Shown here piece after piece: positions 1,578 through 9,837 of a stretch of DNA of 38,873 nt. Position 1 is the stretch's first letter; each line of letters opens with the position of its first letter. The DNA is from Lysobacterales bacterium (GTDB lineage Bacteria > Pseudomonadota > Gammaproteobacteria > Xanthomonadales > SZUA-36). The stretch spans positions 1 through 38,873 of the forward strand of contig JAOUCS010000021.1 in the NCBI GenBank assembly GCA_029859645.1, given 5' to 3'. The position numbers were made by a program, and so were the translations under genes. A model generated the notes under the pieces. It was not told where the DNA came from and searched no databases. It was given only the letters and a program-made list of their open reading frames with translations.

Positions 1578-2765
1578 TCAGAAGCTCAGCGACCACATGG
1601 CCTCAAGCTCAATCTGCTGATCCAGGGTATCCGTGGTGACACCCAGCACACTGCCTCCGAAAGCAAACTCCGAGGGCGCATAGGCTGCATTGAAGGCGAG
1701 CCGGCTTCTGTCACTGGTTCGCCTCGAATAACCCACCACCAGGGCGCTGTCTGCCAGGTCTCCTTTCAGCGCCCGGTTCAGCACTGCAGAAGAGGGAGAG
1801 GGTTGTGTCCGGGTGCTCAGGTCCACATGCCACTGCTGGTCCTCTCCATCGCTCCAGGTGTAACCCACGCTGTAAACCGTCAGATCGTTCCAGTCAAAAG
1901 AGGGGCTACCTGAATCACCCAGCAGGGACAGGAAGCGGTTCGGAAGATAACGGCTGGGGAACGCGCTAATGTCGCTATACATCACCCGCTCAATGGCGAC
2001 GTTAAGCCATGACCGCTCAGTGGCCTGGAACGCCAGGCTCACGCTGGCGCGCGCAGGAATGTCCAGATCCGCAGCCTGGGCGTAAACACCGCGATAAGTG
2101 TCAAAGGCTTCCATATCGATACGGGACTGGTAGCCCGCATCCAGCGCAATCCCCTTGACCACTTCCTGGCGCAGGGCCAGGCGCACACCCGTGCCGTAAC
2201 CGGATTCATACTGAGGGGAATAGGTGGTCGGCAGCCACGGACTTTCACCCGGCCTGCTGGCCGCGGTCAAACCCAGGCTGGCCGCGCTGTAGCGTTGATG
2301 CGCAATGATCGCAGCCACACCAAGCACCGAATTGTTGGAAAACTGATGCTCGATGCCCGGCGAGAAATATTGCCGGTCAAAACTGGTGCCCTGAAAACTC
2401 GCATCAGGTTCCACACCAGGCCACTGGTATTCGGAATCAGACTGCCATTCAAACTCGAAGTTGATCCGGGTTGGCGGCGGCGACTCGAGGTGCGATGCAA
2501 AATCCGGCATGATCGAGATTTCGCTGTTGCGCAACCAGGAGATACGCATCGGTTCGGTGTTGTCGGGCAGCATGTAAACCGGTGTCAATTCCTGCGCCAG
2601 GTATTCCTGCCATGGGCCCAGTTCAAAACCGATAATGTAGAAGGAGGTAAGACCATTTCCAACGCTGGCAAAGCCCGCTGCAGGCAAGCCGATCCCCGGG
2701 GCACCGGCAACTCCCGGCATCAATCCCATGATGGCTAACACAGTACTGGCGACCTTCAGGCGCAC
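1578..2765 (-). CDS. FadL/OmpP1-like outer-membrane protein
   Basis: The predicted mature protein is rich in alternating hydrophobic beta strands and ends in MWSLSF, with the terminal phenylalanine typical of outer-membrane barrels. The block around DAGYQSRIDMEAFDTY and the following LDIPARASVSLAFQ resembles the FadL/OmpP1/TodX family pattern (stretch containing Y-K/S-R, then D-I-P-A). Family members move hydrophobic substrates such as long-chain fatty acids across the outer membrane; the substrate here is unknown. I chose the GTG at 2765 because GAGGG stands about seven bases upstream and the product then begins with a clean signal peptide (MRLKVASTVLAIMGLMPGVAGA). In-frame ATGs at 2786 and the farther-upstream start at 2837 lack a good ribosome site and would bury the signal peptide. 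At 395 residues it is slightly shorter than typical FadL. Confidence 0.7.
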   Translation of the reverse strand: MRLKVASTVLAIMGLMPGVAGAPGIGLPAAGFASVGNGLTSFYIIGFELGPWQEYLAQELTPVYMLPDNTEPMRISWLRNSEISIMPDFASHLESPPPTRINFEFEWQSDSEYQWPGVEPDASFQGTSFDRQYFSPGIEHQFSNNSVLGVAAIIAHQRYSAASLGLTAASRPGESPWLPTTYSPQYESGYGTGVRLALRQEVVKGIALDAGYQSRIDMEAFDTYRGVYAQAADLDIPARASVSLAFQATERSWLNVAIERVMYSDISAFPSRYLPNRFLSLLGDSGSPSFDWNDLTVYSVGYTWSDGEDQQWHVDLSTRTQPSPSSAVLNRALKGDLADSALVVGYSRRTSDRSRLAFNAAYAPSEFAFGGSVLGVTTDTLDQQIELEAMWSLSF

Positions 2766-2884
2766 ACATTTTCCCTCATTCTGCATTAGATGCATAAATT
2801 CACGATGAAATATGGCAGGAATGCAACAGCAAGTCAATGACCACGGGCAGATTCCCTGACCCCTTAGAAAACACTACAGGCAGC

Positions 2885-2890
2885 ATTATA
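2885..2890 (-). promoter_or_regulatory. Candidate -10 box for the FadL-like gene
   Basis: Read on the minus strand this is a perfect TATAAT. It lies about 120 bases upstream of the GTG at 2765, in the divergent region shared with thiD. The -35 position (about 2908-2913, CTCTTT on the minus strand) is poor, so activator dependence is possible. Confidence 0.4.
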
Positions 2891-2935
2891 CAAGTCATTG
2901 TTTTTAAAAAGAGTGGCCCAAACCCGACGGGGCAA

Positions 2936-2965
2936 TTGACGGCCGTCATCAGAGTCCCTTATAAA
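2936..2965 (+). promoter_or_regulatory. Sigma-70-like promoter for thiD
   Basis: TTGACG at 2936-2941 is followed, after 17 bases, by TTATAA at 2959-2964 (TATAAA at 2960-2965). Transcription would start near 2972, giving a leader of about 55 bases before the thiD ATG. No thiamine riboswitch core is evident in that short leader. Confidence 0.5.
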
Positions 2966-3027
2966 ACCCCCGGGCGATCGTTCCGTTGCTAGAATGCAAC
3001 AACACTATTCTGACAGGAAAACAGGGC

Positions 3028-3831
3028 ATGCAGAAGCCGTTTATAGAAAGGTCTGTGCTCACCATTGCAGGTTCAGACAGCTGCGGCGGATCGGGCATCC
3101 AGGCCGACCTGAATACTTTTGCCGCTTTCGGGGTATACGGCGCATCGGTGGTGACTGCTGTCACAGCCCGCAATACGCGAGCGGTAAGGGCCGTTGAGCC
3201 GATTTCAGACCAGATGATCGTGGACCAGGTGGAGTCAGTCCTGGAGGATCTGCCAATCAGTGCGATCAAGATAGGCGCCCTGCCCAGCGTGGCGGGCATT
3301 GCCGTTCTTGGAGAGCTTCTGTCGCTCCTGAATCCCCGCATCCCGATGGTAGTGGACCCCGCGGTAATTGAACCCCGCGGCAAAGAGCTGGGCGGGGAAG
3401 TCATCCTGGAAGCGGTGCAAAATCACTTGTTTCCGCTGGCAACACTGATAACCCCGAACCGGCAGGAGGCAGAAATCCTTACCGGCCGGAAGATCCACTG
3501 CATGGAGGATATGAAATCCGCCGCGCACGAGCTCCTGGCGCTCGGATCGAGTGCCGTTTTTCTCAAAGGCGGAACGTTCGGAACCCCGGAAATCACCGAT
3601 CTGTTGCTGACAGAAGCGGGTTTTGAAAGCTTTTCCCACGCTTCTTTCAAGGGACGTTTTCACGGCACGGGATGTGCGTTGTCTTCTGCCGTGGCGGCAG
3701 GCCTGGCCATGGGCTGGGAGCTGAGCGCTGCGGTACGCGAGGCGGTTGAGTATGTTCAGCAATGCCTGGGCCACAGCCGCACGCCCGTAACAGGAAGGGC
3801 CGGCTTACTGGGCTTTCACCCCAGCAGCTAG
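3028..3831 (+). CDS. thiD: Hydroxymethylpyrimidine/phosphomethylpyrimidine kinase
   Basis: ThiD phosphorylates HMP and then HMP-phosphate to HMP-PP, the pyrimidine half of thiamine. The protein (267 residues from the ATG at 3028) starts with the family block [18 protein letters not shown], then carries [38 protein letters not shown] and the anion-hole/catalytic motif [15 protein letters not shown] near residue 215. These are ribokinase-fold kinase hallmarks. The ATG at 3028 gives the usual N-terminus; an in-frame start at 2986 adds 14 unconserved residues. AGGA lies about 12 bases upstream. No other thiamine gene is adjacent. Its stop codon overlaps that of the convergent isocitrate dehydrogenase gene. 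Confidence 0.92.
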
Positions 3832-4832
3832 ATTCGGCTGATTATCGCCTCGGAGAAAGAGTCCGTGTTGCCAGACCCGCCAAGGTCGGGCGTGATGCGG
3901 TCGCCCGCAGCAATGGTGGCCGTGATTGCCCCGTGCAAGCGATCAGCTTTGTCCTGCATACCGAGGTGAGAAAGCATTTGCGCAGCGGTCAATAAAAGTG
4001 CACAGGGGTTGGCAATCTTGCGACCTGCTATGTCTGGCGCCGATCCATGCACAGCCTCGAATATGGACACTTCCCGGCCGATATTGGCGCCTGGAGCCAG
4101 GCCGAGACCGCCGACCAGGCCGGCACAGAGATCGGAAATGATGTCGCCAAACAGGTTGGTGGTCACGATGACGTCAAACTGCTGCGGGTCCATCACCAGC
4201 TTCATGCAGGTCGCGTCGACAATCATTTCCTCACATTCAATATCCGGGTAGTTTTCGGCTACGCCGCGAGATACGTCTAAAAAAAGTCCGGATACGGTTT
4301 TGAGGATGTTGGCTTTATGCACCAGGGTCACTTTTCGCCGCCCTGCCCTGCGTGCCAGCTCGAACGCATAGCGGGTGACACGCTCGCTGCCTTTACGCGT
4401 GATCACCATTTTCGATTCAGCCGTGTTGCCGTCTTCACTGAGCAACGCATCGGCCGCGAGATAGGCGCCTTCGGTATTTTCGCGAACCGTCACGATATCC
4501 ACGTTTTCATAGCGCGAACGGGTTCCAGGCATCGACACCACGGGACGGACATTGGCATACAGGTCGAACAACTCGCGCAGAGTGACATTAATGGAACGAA
4601 AGCCCATGCCAACCGGCGTAGTCAGCGGGCCCTTCAGCGCAACCCGGTTGCGGCGGATCGACTCGAGCGTGGCTTCGGGTAACAGGTCGCCATGCCGATC
4701 GAGCGCGCCGAGACCCGCCTCGACATATTCGTAATCGAAACCACAATCCAGGGCATCCAGCACGCTGATGCTCGCGCTCATGATTTCAGGTCCGATACCG
4801 TCTCCGCTGATCACACTGATCGTCTGGCTCAT
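3828..4832 (-). CDS. NAD-type isocitrate dehydrogenase (isocitrate/isopropylmalate dehydrogenase family)
   Basis: This 334-residue enzyme belongs to the beta-decarboxylating dehydrogenases. It shows GDGIGPEI near the N-terminus, the substrate-binding RSINVTLRELFDLYANVRP segment, the RENTEGAY motif, a catalytic-Lys region HKANILK, the metal-binding aspartates in TNLFGDIISDL, and the NAD-site EAVHGSAPDIAG. The S-x-N-V-T-L-R segment and short length fit mitochondrial-type NAD-isocitrate dehydrogenase better than LeuB; homoisocitrate or tartrate dehydrogenase cannot be fully excluded. It would convert isocitrate to 2-oxoglutarate in the TCA cycle. The ATG at 4832 has GGAG eight bases upstream. 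Confidence 0.8.
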   Translation of the reverse strand: MSQTISVISGDGIGPEIMSASISVLDALDCGFDYEYVEAGLGALDRHGDLLPEATLESIRRNRVALKGPLTTPVGMGFRSINVTLRELFDLYANVRPVVSMPGTRSRYENVDIVTVRENTEGAYLAADALLSEDGNTAESKMVITRKGSERVTRYAFELARRAGRRKVTLVHKANILKTVSGLFLDVSRGVAENYPDIECEEMIVDATCMKLVMDPQQFDVIVTTNLFGDIISDLCAGLVGGLGLAPGANIGREVSIFEAVHGSAPDIAGRKIANPCALLLTAAQMLSHLGMQDKADRLHGAITATIAAGDRITPDLGGSGNTDSFSEAIISRI

Positions 4833-4864
4833 TACTCATTCTCCAGGAAAATTCTGAGCCGGCG

Positions 4865-4870
4865 ATTATA
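4865..4870 (-). promoter_or_regulatory. Candidate -10 box upstream of the isocitrate dehydrogenase gene
   Basis: Minus-strand TATAAT lies 33 bases before the ATG at 4832. The best -35 at 17-base spacing (4888-4893, TCAGTT on the minus strand) is weak and lies inside the 3' end of the tusE gene. It suggests the dehydrogenase is not simply read from the tus transcript. Confidence 0.35.
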
Positions 4871-4879
4871 CCCTATGCG

Positions 4880-5194
4880 CTAAACACAACTGACAGGACG
4901 AGGCAATCCGGCGTATCGGCAGCCCTGCGTTCCCGGGCCTTCGGGAAACAACCGGTAAAGATATCGGCTGTTGCCTTTATCATCTCCCAAAGCAGCGCGT
5001 ACACGACCGACGAGGGCCCGCATCGGTGGCTCAATTTCGTAGCACTCAAAGTATTGCCGAAAAATATTCAGCACCACCCAGTGGTCGTCAGTCAGCTCTA
5101 AATGATCTTGCGCAGCCATGCTGCGGGCGACATCGGGTGTCCATTGCAGCCAGTCCAGCAGATAACCTTTTTCATCGGTCGCGGGAAGCGCCAT
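4880..5194 (-). CDS. tusE: TusE/DsrC family sulfur carrier
   Basis: The product (104 residues) is a DsrC/TusE-family protein, the sulfur acceptor that takes persulfide from TusBCD/DsrEFH. It ends in LPRPVSCV, placing the universal reactive cysteine at penultimate position 103. A second cysteine at residue 92 (GCRYAG) lies eleven positions before it; as family knowledge, this two-cysteine C-terminal arm (CysB and CysA) is characteristic of DsrC, while TusE proteins working only in tRNA thiolation usually keep only the last one. The gene is last in the tusD-C-B-E run, two bases after tusB. Its role could be 2-thiouridine formation in tRNA or sulfur oxidation; context in this window does not decide. 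Confidence 0.88.
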   Translation of the reverse strand: MALPATDEKGYLLDWLQWTPDVARSMAAQDHLELTDDHWVVLNIFRQYFECYEIEPPMRALVGRVRAALGDDKGNSRYLYRLFPEGPGTQGCRYAGLPRPVSCV

Positions 5195-5196
5195 GC

Positions 5197-5508
5197 TTAT
5201 TTCCAGGTCAGGCAGGTAGCGTGTTTTCTAAGCAAATCCGGAAATTCCTGGTCAGTGACCACACGAACCTGCAGGTCGTGCGCGACCGCCAGCAAGCCAC
5301 GGGCCTGCAAGTCCGCAGCCAGGAACATGCTGCTGCAAGCGAACGGAGGCTCTTCTCCGATGTTTGCAGCCGCCAGCCACATCACCCCATCATCCACGAA
5401 CAGTACGGCATCGCCCTCTTTGCTGAATGCACCACACCGCTGCACGAGTTCGGCCGATGACCGAACCACCAGGTGCAGACAGGTTTTGCTCTTGGCCTTC
5501 TTGCCCAT
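5197..5508 (-). CDS. tusB: TusB/DsrH-like sulfur relay subunit
   Basis: This small protein (103 residues) sits where TusB/DsrH is expected, directly after tusC and before tusE. It has the family-like CLHLVVRS start strand, then GDAVLFVDDGV, and a mid-region FLAADLQARGL followed by VRVVTDQEFPDLL, matching the usual L-x-x-D-x-x-A-R-G-L pattern. A cysteine at residue 25 (QRCGAF) lies roughly where DsrH carries its conserved cysteine. Two starts are possible: ATG at 5508, used here, and ATG at 5529, which would overlap tusC by 17 bases; neither has a clearly better ribosome site. TusB forms a heterohexamer with TusC and TusD in the cytoplasm. Confidence 0.78.
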   Translation of the reverse strand: MGKKAKSKTCLHLVVRSSAELVQRCGAFSKEGDAVLFVDDGVMWLAAANIGEEPPFACSSMFLAADLQARGLLAVAHDLQVRVVTDQEFPDLLRKHATCLTWK

Positions 5509-5512
5509 GGCC

Positions 5513-5884
5513 TCAGACCACCACCGCATGTTGCTGCGCCCGCCAGGCGATTCTTATCGCATCGCTGTCCAGCGCATCTGCAGGCATGACCAGGGTAATC
5601 GCTTTTTGCCGGCAATAATCCAGCCAGGCCTGTTCAGCGTATACCGTGGTTTTCGCCAACTCGGGTAAGGCAGACCAGGCCCGGTAGCCGGGCGGCAACA
5701 AGGCAGCGATGCTGTTTTGATCTGCTGCCAGCTGCAAGATGGCGGGGCCGACAAAGTACAGGTATAACTCGAACTCCATCGCAGCAGCTGCCATCGCCAG
5801 GTCGATGTTCGCCCGTGCCACGCGGTTCTGGTAAGGCCTGCTCTGCACAATCATCGCCAGTGAACGATCTGAAACCACGGCCAT
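5513..5884 (-). CDS. tusC: TusC/DsrF-like sulfur relay subunit
   Basis: The 123-residue product matches the DsrF/TusC pattern: an early RPYQNRVARANIDLAMAAAAME run resembling the family's short-peptide-then-helix motif, then LYLYFVGPAILQL and the C-terminal part VYAEQAWLDYCRQ. It is one of three related DsrE-fold subunits and is structural rather than catalytic in the known complexes. Its ATG overlaps the tusD stop in an ATGA arrangement (5881-5886 region), indicating translational coupling, and its own stop lies just before the tusB start. Confidence 0.82.
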   Translation of the reverse strand: MAVVSDRSLAMIVQSRPYQNRVARANIDLAMAAAAMEFELYLYFVGPAILQLAADQNSIAALLPPGYRAWSALPELAKTTVYAEQAWLDYCRQKAITLVMPADALDSDAIRIAWRAQQHAVVV

Positions 5885-6231
5885 CAGAATGTCACTACCC
5901 GGTCACTGTGTTGCGTCAGTTCCAGCATCCTGGCCAACCCGGCTTCGCGAAAGGGTAAACCTACAGGTTCTTCGAACCTTCTCTGGCAAGCGGATGAACA
6001 CAACAGTAACGGTACGCCGTGATCGGCAGACAGGCTTTGCCAGGCCTCGGTCAGGCAAGGTGTGCCCGCATCCCGGGCACGGCCCGCCTGGCCGTGATAG
6101 ACGCCCTCTTCCCGGAAAAATATCGCGGTCAGGTGTTCGCCGCTGTCGATCAGTGCACGCACCAACCGCAGCGCGGTGACACCGAGGCTGCTGCTCCAGG
6201 GACCTTCATTTACGACGACCAGTATTTTCAC
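5884..6231 (-). CDS. tusD: TusD/DsrE-like sulfurtransferase subunit
   Basis: TusD/DsrE is the persulfide-carrying subunit of the TusBCD (DsrEFH) complex. This 115-residue protein starts MKILVVVNEGPWSSS, has the GVYHGQAG loop, and carries a cysteine at residue 78 in VPLLLCSSACQRR, the exact place of the active-site cysteine known in DsrE. The start is GTG at 6231, the first possible start after an in-frame TGA; no ribosome site is evident, so it may be leaderless or nearly so. It is first of the tusD-C-B-E run and is divergent from bepA. Confidence 0.85.
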   Translation of the reverse strand: MKILVVVNEGPWSSSLGVTALRLVRALIDSGEHLTAIFFREEGVYHGQAGRARDAGTPCLTEAWQSLSADHGVPLLLCSSACQRRFEEPVGLPFREAGLARMLELTQHSDRVVTF

Positions 6232-6307
6232 GTTAAACTGTCAGTTGCCGAGAACCGGCCCCATATTACGTTGTCGAAATGGTGATGGGAATGTCAGGGG
6301 TAATGCA

Positions 6308-7774
6308 TTGAAGAAATTAACGCGGCTCATACTGGTACTGCTGTGCGTTTTCACCAGCCTCGCCAGTGTCGCCCAGACCGAGCAACTGGACTTGCCGGAT
6401 ATGGGCGCTTCCGCTAATTCCATACTGTCCAGGGCGGAGGAGGCGGAATATGCCAAGGCCCTGCTGATGCAGATGCGCGCCTATGAAGTACTCAACGAAG
6501 ACCCCCTGATCTCGGCTTATTTCGAAGACATGGGCTTTCGCCTGGCGGCCCATAGCGACCGCCCCGACAAGGCCTTTACCTTCGTCGTCATCAATCAGCC
6601 GGTGGTTAATGCCTTTGCCGCGCCCGGCGGTGTCATTGCCCTCTACAGCGGGCTGATCCTGGCCGCCGACGACGAGAACGAAGTGGCCGGCGTCCTGTCT
6701 CACGAAATTGCGCACATCACACAGCTGCACCTTTACCGTGCTTATGAAAATCAGCAGGCCATGACCATACCGATCGCGCTGGCCATGCTGGCCCTGGTGC
6801 TGGTGGGCGGCGGTGGTGGCGAAGCGATCCAGGGCGCCGTCATGGGCGGCCAGGCGGCAGCCATGCAGGCGCAGATATTTTTCACCCGGCAAAACGAATA
6901 TGAAGCAGACCGGATCGGTATTTCCACGTTGTCCAGAGCAGGCTACGATCCGGCCGGCATGGGCGAGTTCTTCGAGAAAATGGGCAGGATCAACCGGTCG
7001 ATGGGAGAAGGACCACCCGAATATCTCCGTACTCATCCGGTTTCAGTCAGCCGCATCGCCGAAGCCGAAAACCGCGCTGCAAACATGCCAAAGCCCGAAC
7101 CCACGGACGGGCGTGACTTTTACCTGGTCCAGGCACGGCTGCGGGCCATGACCTCGAAAACCCCGGACGAAGCCCTGGACTGGTTCAAGCATCGCATGGA
7201 CCGGGCGGACATCAGCCAGGCCGAGAGCGATGCACTTTTTTACGGTCGTGCGATAGCGCTGCAAAAAAAGGGGAACTATGAAGAAGCCCGCAAACTGCTG
7301 CAAAACCTGATAGAGCGTGACCACCACATCGCTTATGATTTGCAACTGGCGGACCTCGACCTCGAATCGGGCAATGACAACCGTGCCATCGACCAGTTAG
7401 CCGGCCTGTACAACAGTTTCCCCGGTAACCACGCAATTTCCCTGCAATACGCAACAGCGCTTCTTAAAGATGGCGATACCGGCAAAGCGGACACCGCTGC
7501 CGTGATCCTGCGCAAGCAATTACTTTCCCACCCCAACGATCCTAAGCTGTATGAGTTGTATGCACGTTCCGCCAATATCGCGGGCGATACGGTCAAGGCC
7601 AAGGAGGCCATGGCGGAGTCCTACTACCTGCGCGGAGGTATCCACGAGGCGGCCATGCAATTGCAGACCCTGGCTAACGAAGACGATCTGGATTATTACC
7701 AACGGGCCCGGATTACGGCCCGGATTACGGAACTTCGTCTGGAACTGGCCAAACTCGGGCTGGAAGAAAGCTGA
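6308..7774 (+). CDS. bepA: BepA-like periplasmic metalloprotease/chaperone (M48 with TPR)
   Basis: BepA (formerly YfgC) degrades or assists misassembled outer-membrane proteins such as LptD in the periplasm. The protein has a signal peptide (MKKLTRLILVLLCVFTSLASVAQ), an M48 domain with zinc motif HEIAH at residues 132-136 and the third ligand glutamate in NEYEADRIG near residue 199, a glycine-rich hydrophobic loop just after the HEIAH helix, and a C-terminal TPR region from about residue 265 onward. I chose TTG at 6308 because AGGGG stands seven bases upstream and the signal peptide begins there; the open frame extends to 6176 but that part overlaps tusD antisense and spoils the signal peptide. 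Length 488 is normal for the family. Confidence 0.9.
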   Translation: MKKLTRLILVLLCVFTSLASVAQTEQLDLPDMGASANSILSRAEEAEYAKALLMQMRAYEVLNEDPLISAYFEDMGFRLAAHSDRPDKAFTFVVINQPVVNAFAAPGGVIALYSGLILAADDENEVAGVLSHEIAHITQLHLYRAYENQQAMTIPIALAMLALVLVGGGGGEAIQGAVMGGQAAAMQAQIFFTRQNEYEADRIGISTLSRAGYDPAGMGEFFEKMGRINRSMGEGPPEYLRTHPVSVSRIAEAENRAANMPKPEPTDGRDFYLVQARLRAMTSKTPDEALDWFKHRMDRADISQAESDALFYGRAIALQKKGNYEEARKLLQNLIERDHHIAYDLQLADLDLESGNDNRAIDQLAGLYNSFPGNHAISLQYATALLKDGDTGKADTAAVILRKQLLSHPNDPKLYELYARSANIAGDTVKAKEAMAESYYLRGGIHEAAMQLQTLANEDDLDYYQRARITARITELRLELAKLGLEES

Positions 7775-7786
7775 ATTGAAATTATT

Positions 7787-7808
7787 CTGTCATATGCGTC
7801 CTTAATAA
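7787..7808 (+). promoter_or_regulatory. Possible half Pho box upstream of phoB
   Basis: CTGTCATATGC at 7787-7797 is a good match to one Pho-box half (CTGTCAT plus A/T-rich tail), but the following 11 bases (GTCCTTAATAA) match poorly. PhoB autoregulation would be expected. The site is 33 bases upstream of the GTG start. Confidence 0.3.
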
Positions 7809-7840
7809 TGGTATTTCCGGTTATCTATGTGTGAATCACA

Positions 7841-8539
7841 GTGAGCAAAAACCCTTCATCAGTGCTGGTGGTGGATGACGAAATCGCCATTCTCGACATG
7901 ATCTGTTTCGCACTTGAGCAGGCTGGCATGGAAGTGCAGACTGCGGCCAGCGCCTATGACGCCCTGATTCAGCTCAACGATAACCGGCCAGACATCATAC
8001 TGATGGACTGGATGATGCCCGGCGTCAGCGGGATCGAACTGATCCGGCGTCTGCGCAAAGATCCGAATACCGAAGACATCCCGATCATCATGCTTACTGC
8101 CAGGGTGACTGAAGATGACAAAATCTCAGGCTTGGATGCGGGTGCGGACGACTACCTGGTAAAGCCTTTTTCGCCGCGGGAGTTGCTGGCGAGGATCAAG
8201 GCGGTATTGCGCCGGAGCACTCCTGGCAATGAGTCTGGAGAAATTACCTTGGGGCGAATAAAGATGGATACGATCTCCCGGCGGGTATTGTCCGATGGCC
8301 AGGAAATTCACCTTGGCCCCACCGATTATCGTTTGCTGGAATTTTTCATGGCCAATCCCGGTCGGGTATTCAGCCGGAGCCAGTTGCTGGACCGGGTCTG
8401 GGGCACTAATGTCTACCTGGAAGAACGCACAGTAGATGTCCATATCAGGCGCTTGCGAAAAGCCCTGGAGAAGGCAAGCGCCGAATCCTATCTGCAGACG
8501 GCCCGCGGACATGGCTATCGATTTGTAGCCGATGAATAA
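7841..8539 (+). CDS. phoB: PhoB phosphate-regulon response regulator
   Basis: This is an OmpR/PhoB-class regulator of 232 residues. The receiver domain shows the acidic pair D12-D13, phospho-acceptor D56 in LMDWMMPG, TA at about 86-87 and K108 in LVKPFSPREL. The C-terminal winged helix (about 130-230) has LGPTDYRLLEFFMANPGRVFSR and VDVHIRRLRKAL, which are PhoB hallmarks. It starts at a GTG with a weak ribosome site. PhoR follows 14 bases downstream, as in most phoBR operons. Phosphorylated PhoB should bind the Pho box in front of the porin gene downstream. Confidence 0.93.
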   Translation: MSKNPSSVLVVDDEIAILDMICFALEQAGMEVQTAASAYDALIQLNDNRPDIILMDWMMPGVSGIELIRRLRKDPNTEDIPIIMLTARVTEDDKISGLDAGADDYLVKPFSPRELLARIKAVLRRSTPGNESGEITLGRIKMDTISRRVLSDGQEIHLGPTDYRLLEFFMANPGRVFSRSQLLDRVWGTNVYLEERTVDVHIRRLRKALEKASAESYLQTARGHGYRFVADE

Positions 8540-8553
8540 CGCCCGTTGATGGC

Positions 8554-9837
8554 ATGACACACCGAGACTGGAAATACCACGCTTCCGTTTTCATAATTTT
8601 GGTTGCTGTCATTTTGCTGACGGGCTGGTTTTTCGGGCATTTCACCGAGACGGCTCTTGTCGTCGTGGCGTTTGCTGCGGCGTGGCACCTGGTTCATTTC
8701 TGGAGAATGTACGCCTGGCTGAAAAACCCAACCCTGGAAACGCCAAAAAGCCTGGGAATATGGGCGGACGTATTCAGCCGGCTGAGCTCCCTGGAGCAGC
8801 AAAAAAGAAAACAGAAAAAGCGCTATCGGCGAATGATCAATGACTTTCGAAATGTGACCGATGCATTTCCGGACGCCACCCTGATGATTGACAAAAGCGC
8901 CAGGCTGGCCTGGTTCAACCAGGCTGCGGCAATATTCCTGGGACTGGAAGAGAATAAAGACGTAGGCCGCCGAATCTCGAGCCTGTTGCGCAGTACCGAA
9001 TTCAATCACTGGTTGTCTGACGGAGAAAAAATCGCAGGCAAGCTGGAAATTCCCGCTCCGGGTAACACGGAAATGTGGCTTGAAATCAGCTCTGTGCCTA
9101 TACATAAAGGACGGCAGCTGATCATTTTTCGGGACATTAGCGAAGTCCATCACCTGGATCGCGTGAGGAAAGATTTCGTCACCAACGTTTCCCATGAATT
9201 GCGCACGCCCCTTACCGTCATGCGAGGGTACCTTGAGATATTACAGGACCGGCCCGAGGATGAACTGACCGGCCCCTTCAGGCGCATGCATGCACAAGCG
9301 ATCCAGATGCAGGCCATGCTTGATGACTTGCTTGAACTCTCCCGATTACAGTCCCTGGATGAACAAGGTGAGATTGAACCCGTGGACGTGCCGGCGATAT
9401 TGATGCAGATCAAAGAGCAGGCGCAGGAAATCAGCCGCGGCCGGCATGAACTGCAATTCCAGATCGATAAAGACCTGCACCTGCTAGGAAAGCGGTCCGA
9501 CCTGGAAAGCGCGTTCCGCAATCTCGTTGTCAATGCGCTGAAATATACTCCGGGTGGCGGCGAAATCTCCGTGTTGTGGTCGAATGGAGAGCAAGGCCCT
9601 TCACTGGCAGTCTCCGACACCGGCATAGGCATTCCCCGGAGGGAGATTCCGAGGCTCACAGAACGATTTTACCGGGTGGGTTCAGACCGCGGGCGCGAAT
9701 CCGGCGGTACCGGTCTCGGATTGGCGATTGTCAAACATGTTCTTTCCGCTCACGACGCCCAACTGGAAATAGAAAGCGACGTTGGTGTCGGCAGTCGATT
9801 CACCTGCATCTTCCCTCCTCACCGCATTTCTGACTGA
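8554..9837 (+). CDS. phoR: PhoR phosphate-sensing histidine kinase
   Basis: The 427-residue kinase has two N-terminal membrane segments (about residues 10-28 and 33-50), a charged linker, a PAS domain (about 95-200), the phospho-acceptor H214 in NVSHELRTPL, and a HATPase domain with NLVVNALKYTPGGG, DTGIGIPRREI and GTGLGLAIVKH boxes. The short N-terminus without a large periplasmic domain and the PAS domain are typical of PhoR, which senses phosphate through the Pst transporter and PhoU. No pst or phoU gene is in the window. Length is like E. coli PhoR (431). Confidence 0.93.
   Translation: MTHRDWKYHASVFIILVAVILLTGWFFGHFTETALVVVAFAAAWHLVHFWRMYAWLKNPTLETPKSLGIWADVFSRLSSLEQQKRKQKKRYRRMINDFRNVTDAFPDATLMIDKSARLAWFNQAAAIFLGLEENKDVGRRISSLLRSTEFNHWLSDGEKIAGKLEIPAPGNTEMWLEISSVPIHKGRQLIIFRDISEVHHLDRVRKDFVTNVSHELRTPLTVMRGYLEILQDRPEDELTGPFRRMHAQAIQMQAMLDDLLELSRLQSLDEQGEIEPVDVPAILMQIKEQAQEISRGRHELQFQIDKDLHLLGKRSDLESAFRNLVVNALKYTPGGGEISVLWSNGEQGPSLAVSDTGIGIPRREIPRLTERFYRVGSDRGRESGGTGLGLAIVKHVLSAHDAQLEIESDVGVGSRFTCIFPPHRISD

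Follow-up and report, generated by a model that had tools for sequence, protein, structure and literature searches.

The tusDCBE cluster of the window (the whole stretch of 38,873 nucleotides that was analysed) is very probably the normal, native relay for tRNA thiolation, in which the first of two C-terminal TusE cysteines, C92, would be an old and spare residue, and sulfur oxidation in the same organism would proceed through a separate sHdr-LbpA system. This explanation draws on gene content, homology, residue positions, phylogeny, synteny, the distribution of the residues among relatives and an sHdr cluster located elsewhere in the genome. The window is contig C223 of genome G000, which comprises 3.84 Mb in 255 contigs and is 95.7% complete.

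Inspection of the open reading frames revealed tusD-tusC-tusB-tusE at 4880-6231 on the minus strand as four reading frames. The genes, the codons of the relevant cysteines and the flanking genes are as follows.

3828-4832, minus strand: isocitrate/isopropylmalate dehydrogenase family gene; downstream flank, common to dsrA-less family members
4880-5194, minus strand: tusE, DsrC/TusE family, 104 aa (reading frame, TIGR03342, Pfam DsrC, alignment to 1yx3)
4886-4888, minus strand: codon of TusE C103, the CysA, penultimate, persulfide-carrying position (alignment to 1yx3; role as given in excerpts of PMC3397948)
4919-4921, minus strand: codon of TusE C92, the CysB position of DsrC (sequence and alignment to 1yx3)
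5197-5508, minus strand: tusB of the DsrH family, 103 aa when begun at the ATG of 5508 (reading frame, TIGR03011, Pfam DsrH)
5434-5436, minus strand: codon of TusB C25, the DsrH Cys20 position (sequence and alignment to 2hy5)
5513-5884, minus strand: tusC, DsrF family, 123 aa (reading frame, TIGR03010, Pfam DsrE)
5884-6231, minus strand: tusD, DsrE family, 115 aa, GTG start (reading frame, TIGR03012, Pfam DsrE)
5998-6000, minus strand: codon of TusD C78, the active-site cysteine (sequence and alignment to DsrE and TusD)
6299-7774, plus strand: M48 protease (BepA-like); divergent upstream flank, common to dsrA-less relatives

The longest frame of tusB starts at 5529, and the ATG at 5508 is the start that matches the residue numbering of a preliminary description of this DNA. 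TusE matched TIGR03342 (dsrC_tusE_dsvC) with 126.5 bits, over the cut-off. The best matches of TusB (TIGR03011, TusB/DsrH, 43.8 bits), TusC (TIGR03010, TusC/DsrF, 38.3 bits) and TusD (TIGR03012, TusD/DsrE, 68.6 bits) were under the curated NCBIfam cut-offs, indicating that these three proteins are divergent. TusE, TusB, TusC and TusD were all over the cut-off for Pfam DsrC, DsrH, DsrE and DsrE, respectively. Judged by sequence, the homology of TusE, TusC and TusD is clear and not a chance likeness, and that of TusB is assigned on the basis of family models and gene order. The closest named relatives of TusE in sequence comparison were proteins of uncultured Lysobacterales/Xanthomonadales and of similar metagenome bins.

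Alignment of TusE to DsrC of Allochromatium vinosum (PDB 1yx3) was gapless and placed C92 and C103 on the two C-terminal cysteines of DsrC, CysB and CysA, spaced eleven residues apart as in DsrC. TusD C78 aligned with the cysteine of DsrE and with that of E. coli TusD, and TusB C25 paired with the DsrH cysteine in PDB 2hy5, the match being weak (E 0.087). Thus, the frames and alignments agree with the gene order D-C-B-E and the four cysteines pointed out in the preliminary description. At the loop of DsrC, too, A. vinosum DsrC and the TusE of the window are gapless against each other, and DsrC of two sulfate reducers (2v4j, 2xsj) is 7 residues shorter there, so that in this alignment the loop does not tell the TusE of the window apart from the DsrC of sulfur oxidisers.

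According to excerpts of PMC3397948, CysB (Cys100 in A. vinosum) is restricted to DsrAB-bearing organisms, and elsewhere the position is nearly always Ala, Ser or Thr, with exceptions in Methylococcaceae, Marinobacter and Lawsonia. The position was therefore read in relatives of the window, where dsrA-less denotes genomes with no dsrA match over the family cut-off, several of which have weak matches (42-43 bits in the family genomes G279 and G289). The order sample comprised all 63/63 genomes with a DsrC-family match, one main copy each, with extra copies in G278 and G288 omitted. A search of the window's own family (f1) gave DsrC-family matches in 34/39 genomes, of which the reading covered all except G375 and G392, and except a second copy in each of G384 and G388. 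The class set comprised 43 dsrA-less genomes, one copy each, after omission of G164 (in-frame stops), G144 and G257 (weak matches) and G186.

CysB was present in 26/26 genomes read with dsrA over the cut-off. Outside this count stand seven genomes labelled 'dsr?' and kept as Dsr rows in the tree of 91 sets described below: G270, a dsr control with no dsrA match over the cut-off whose dsrEFHC contig ends just upstream, and six family genomes outside the dsrA search (G379, G384, G385, G386, G388 and G389). CysB was also present in 34/56 genomes of the order with TusE and no dsrA over the cut-off: in 4/8 of those from f1, rising to 12/21 f1 Tus sets once further family genomes were added, and in 30/48 TusE from the other sampled families. 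By family the counts were 7/7 (f174), 4/4 (f175), 6/6 (f181), 12/14 (f179), 1/13 (f178), 0/3 (f173) and 0/1 (f180), CysB thus predominating in four of these families. dsrA over the cut-off was found in 0/48 of the other-family genomes, three having sub-cut-off matches of 19-22 bits, and sHdrA of G000 was found in 0/48, three having stray matches of 26-29 bits. It was also found in 0/24 class genomes searched, these 24 and the 48 together giving four weak matches of 26-134 bits; true sHdrA scored at least 623 bits in five genomes, all of f1. Since CysB occurs in 30/48 TusE from genomes without dsrA over the cut-off and without sHdrA, it is a common TusE residue in this order and no mark of sulfur oxidation. 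As worded in the excerpts of PMC3397948, the published link between CysB and DsrAB breaks down in several families within a single order. A literature search poor in subscription papers did not show CysB described for the TusE of these bacteria, which is weak evidence of absence.

In the class set, CysB was found in 18/43 dsrA-less TusE read. G067 and G134 of this set fall with Dsr in the tree and may be dsr genomes whose dsrA contig is missing; a few of the 18 CysB-bearing genomes are probably dsr genomes with gaps. CysA was lacking in G178. A cysteine at C78 was seen in 92/92 TusD identified in dsrA-less genomes, and that of TusB was present in 39/60 dsrA-less TusB found versus 23/26 DsrH, the TusB, TusC and TusD proteins having been picked by script with home-made profiles so that some weak picks, for example TusD in L100, may be wrong. 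With these profiles, TusB was unrecognised beside TusE in L042, L049 and L094 (f173) and in L045, L059 and L097 (f178), and all of TusBCD were unrecognised beside TusE in the three f173 loci. tusD, tusC, tusB and tusE were adjacent in 25/43 of the dsrA-less class genomes read. Neither TusD C78 nor the TusB cysteine nor the adjacency of the four genes tells Dsr and Tus apart, and the loop, as aligned here, does not do so either. On the basis of their distribution, CysB, TusD C78, the cysteine of TusB and the order of the genes were rejected as signs of sulfur oxidation.

A genome search detected tusE as the sole DsrC-family gene of G000. Of the dsrAB genes, which the preliminary description had proposed to look for, dsrA was sought with TIGR02064 and gave 0 matches in this 95.7% complete genome; soxB also gave no match in the genome search. 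MnmA, cut by contig ends in this assembly, is present as two pieces, each at a contig end (C255 and C37; L175 and L176), one over and the other just under the family cut-off. Two MnmA pieces were also seen in G306, where they resemble each other. Contig C65 of G000 (L172, 4683-9463) encodes the large and small subunits of a [NiFe] hydrogenase, with an Fe-S protein containing a CCG domain nearby; we take this to be possibly an uptake hydrogenase of the Isp type.

A search for the Cys-rich domain led to contig C248 of G000 (L171, 1-8625), which contains a complete type I sHdr-LbpA cluster; the search for lipoate-binding shdr genes suggested in the preliminary description was thereby answered with a match. 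The cluster on L171 is composed as follows.

1-789: lipoate ligase, cut by the contig start
705-1511: GATase
1552-1971: DsrE-like protein
1967-2734: HdrC1
ending at 4085: HdrB1
4094-5140: HdrA
5144-6019: sHdrH candidate, 292 aa, by place and length, with no Pfam match
6023-6784: HdrC2
6757-7722: HdrB2
7698-8153: 152-aa open reading frame with no Pfam match
8170-8625: LbpA, with N-terminal RGC, C-terminal EGCG, and ESGKW

The genes shdrC1B1AHC2B2 are syntenic at 1967-7722, the H gene being assigned by place and length, in agreement with the definition of type I in excerpts of PMC11582611 as shdrC1B1AHC2B2 in one cluster. The LbpA has the lysine and the two hallmark cysteines absent from GcvH, the pair of cysteines by which LbpA is told from GcvH in excerpts of PMC6067878. 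The organism is likely a sulfur oxidiser through sHdr-LbpA, an activity predicted from what is known of this family of systems. Since sHdr of Woeseiales from marine sediment has been published (excerpts of PMC12345210), a cluster of this kind is in itself no novelty.

The descent of the window genes was evaluated in a tree of concatenated TusD-C-B-E from 91 sets and in AU tests on 52 hand-chosen sets of these, with LG+G4 and a quick search. In the 91-set tree the window paired with G377, of the same genus, within the Tus sets of the family and apart from DsrEFHC. In the 52-row tree SH-aLRT was 99 for the pair and 100 for a group of 8 Tus sets of the family. Forcing the window to group with DsrEFHC cost 431 log-likelihood units (AU p 1.6e-7, 52 rows). 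DsrEFHC of dsr-bearing relatives grouped with the Dsr sets of the class, away from the Tus sets of the family. Forcing all 18 family Tus sets together with Dsr gave AU p 5e-5 and forcing the family's own Dsr together with its Tus gave AU p 8e-5 (52 rows each), these two constraints having been chosen after the tree was seen. The deeper Tus group at the level of the order is not firm: the tree of 91 rows includes f175 in it (0.835) and excludes the f180 set, whereas the tree of 52 rows places f175 with the Dsr and class sets (88). The surroundings of the genes were compared over 7.5-8 kb in the family, where the M48 protease and the isocitrate dehydrogenase adjoin Tus in 7/7 dsrA-less loci. Of 28 other loci of the order, 26 have the protease in the stretch and 19 have the dehydrogenase, and among 20 class loci the protease was present in 1. 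None of five neighbour genes searched turned up at any of the family's 5 dsr loci.

These results bear directly on the proposal in the preliminary description that the cluster might be a Dsr set without dsrAB nearby, that is, DsrEFHC remaining after loss of dsrAB. The gene order is identical, both DsrC cysteines are present, and Dsr does exist in the family, five of its genomes in the order sample having dsrA with DsrC nearby. The tree and AU tests nevertheless contradict such an origin, the flanks differ from those of the family's dsr loci, the DsrEFHC of dsr-bearing relatives does not group with the family's Tus, and no dsrA was found in the genome, making this origin extremely improbable; the reading was rejected on tree, synteny and AU tests. 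The preliminary description had named two observations that would refute its proposal: a phylogeny in which the protein falls firmly within TusE and C92 is common among TusE, and an absence of sulfur-oxidation genes from the genome. The first is what the tree, the AU tests and the CysB counts show; as to the second, dsrA and soxB were not found but the complete sHdr-LbpA cluster is present.

The Tus proteins could also have two jobs, thiolating tRNA and exchanging sulfur with sHdr-LbpA, with C92 and C103 as a two-thiol carrier, an explanation that is unlikely. G000 does carry sHdr, and in family f1 CysB is present in 8/10 sHdr-bearing versus 4/11 other Tus sets (Fisher p 0.08 with kinship ignored; the correlation offers four independent pairs and has no power). 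The sHdr genes were called by an sHdrA match in G000, G327, G394 and G395 and by the pattern of the Cys-rich domain in G376, G377, G378, G372, G373 and G374, with no partner hit in G373. The 11 sets without sHdr were called by that pattern alone for 9 and also by the sHdrA search for G279 and G353, and the comparison includes genomes of 65% (G383) and 60% (G390) completeness. Against an exchange with Tus, the sHdr cluster owns a DsrE-like protein (L171, 1552-1971) and lies on a different contig from the Tus set, and sulfur delivery to sHdr in Hyphomicrobium is by a DsrE3C protein (excerpts of PMC11582611 and PMC12423496). CysB is absent from two sHdr-bearing genomes, replaced by V in G377 (sHdr by Cys-rich-domain pattern), the nearest relative read, and by S in G395 (sHdrA found), and the residue is as common as stated above in TusE of the other sampled families, from genomes without sHdrA or dsrA. 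The trend in f1 is the sole positive sign of a functional link between TusBCDE and sulfur oxidation, and a weak link is possible; most likely, sHdr-LbpA runs parallel to the Tus set with its own DsrE-like protein. Thus, from the suggestion in the preliminary description that the set joins tRNA thiolation to sulfur oxidation, a sulfur-oxidation system in the genome stands and the link itself is unsupported beyond the p 0.08 trend. A different role for C92, in which a C92-C103 disulfide would halt tRNA thiolation under oxidative or sulfur stress, is very unlikely. Retention of CysB in whole families without dsrA or sHdrA is poorly explained by pure neutrality and suggests some selection, and an intramolecular disulfide has been proposed for DsrC (excerpts of PMC3397948). 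Such a switch is at odds with the finding that CysB changed at least five times among 18 Tus sets of f1, those lacking it having V, I, T or S instead.

In the preferred explanation of a native relay, the tusDCBE operon would be the lineage's own, inherited vertically. As expected from knowledge of the family, persulfide sulfur would pass from TusA/IscS to TusD C78, then to TusE C103 and on to MnmA, which would make the 2-thio group of the wobble uridine in tRNA. C92 would be an old residue, retained in most sampled TusE of the order, repeatedly changed and dispensable for sulfur oxidation, with probably a minor redox role at most, for example a reversible C92-C103 disulfide; its age and spare nature are likewise proposed from knowledge of the family. 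Sulfane sulfur is predicted to be oxidised by the separate type I sHdr-LbpA with its own DsrE-like protein.

The f1 genomes with dsrA over the cut-off (G298, G320, G334, G341 and G348; L033, L035, L036, L037 and L038) have MnmA, and their one DsrC-family gene is located close to dsrA; a DsrC-family search found no native TusE in them. In these genomes tRNA thiolation may therefore have passed from TusBCDE to DsrEFHC. A. vinosum differs in possessing four additional TusE/DsrC-like genes (excerpts of PMC3368242). One member of the family, G298 (L025 with L283), has both dsrA with dsrEFHC and sHdrA. The family could be thought to have one interchangeable module, DsrEFHC of the dsr genomes doing both jobs after loss of native TusBCDE, and double-cysteine TusE of the sHdr species exchanging sulfur with both sHdr-LbpA and MnmA, which is improbable. 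Family f1 is a natural experiment, with close relatives that have native TusBCDE, or DsrEFHC without a TusE found, or TusBCDE plus sHdr, and so allows the question whether DsrC substitutes for TusE to be asked directly.

The window system resembles TusBCD-TusE of E. coli in its four families, TusD C78, the penultimate cysteine of TusE, MnmA and the lack of dsrA. In E. coli, tusE is located away from tusBCD, whereas in the window it adjoins them; the window TusE also differs in having C92 and the window TusB in having a cysteine at the place of DsrH Cys20. The likeness to DsrEFH-DsrC of A. vinosum lies in the order E-F-H-C, CysA and CysB eleven residues apart, the filled positions of DsrE C78 and DsrH C20 and the gapless alignment with 1yx3; the window differs in a genome without dsrA, a separate clade and neighbours unlike those of the family's dsr loci. 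The cluster on L171 resembles the type I sHdr-LbpA of Hyphomicrobium denitrificans in the order C1-B1-A-H-C2-B2, the DsrE-like protein, lipoate ligase, GATase and LbpA, and in G000 this cluster and the Tus genes are on separate contigs. The cysteine pair serves to tell DsrC from TusE when genomes and viruses are annotated, and phage genes have been sorted into the two by it (excerpts of PMC8190135). Since most TusE have CysB in four families whose genomes lack both dsrA and sHdrA, sulfur oxidation is called too often in this clade when the motif is used by itself, and the over-calling of DsrC by the double cysteine in this order is a modest but useful lesson for the annotation of genomes and viruses. 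The double-cysteine TusE of Methylococcaceae, Marinobacter and Lawsonia described in excerpts of PMC3397948 are like that of the window in having both cysteines and no dsrAB; there they are exceptions, whereas here most TusE of four sampled families within a single order have the double cysteine.
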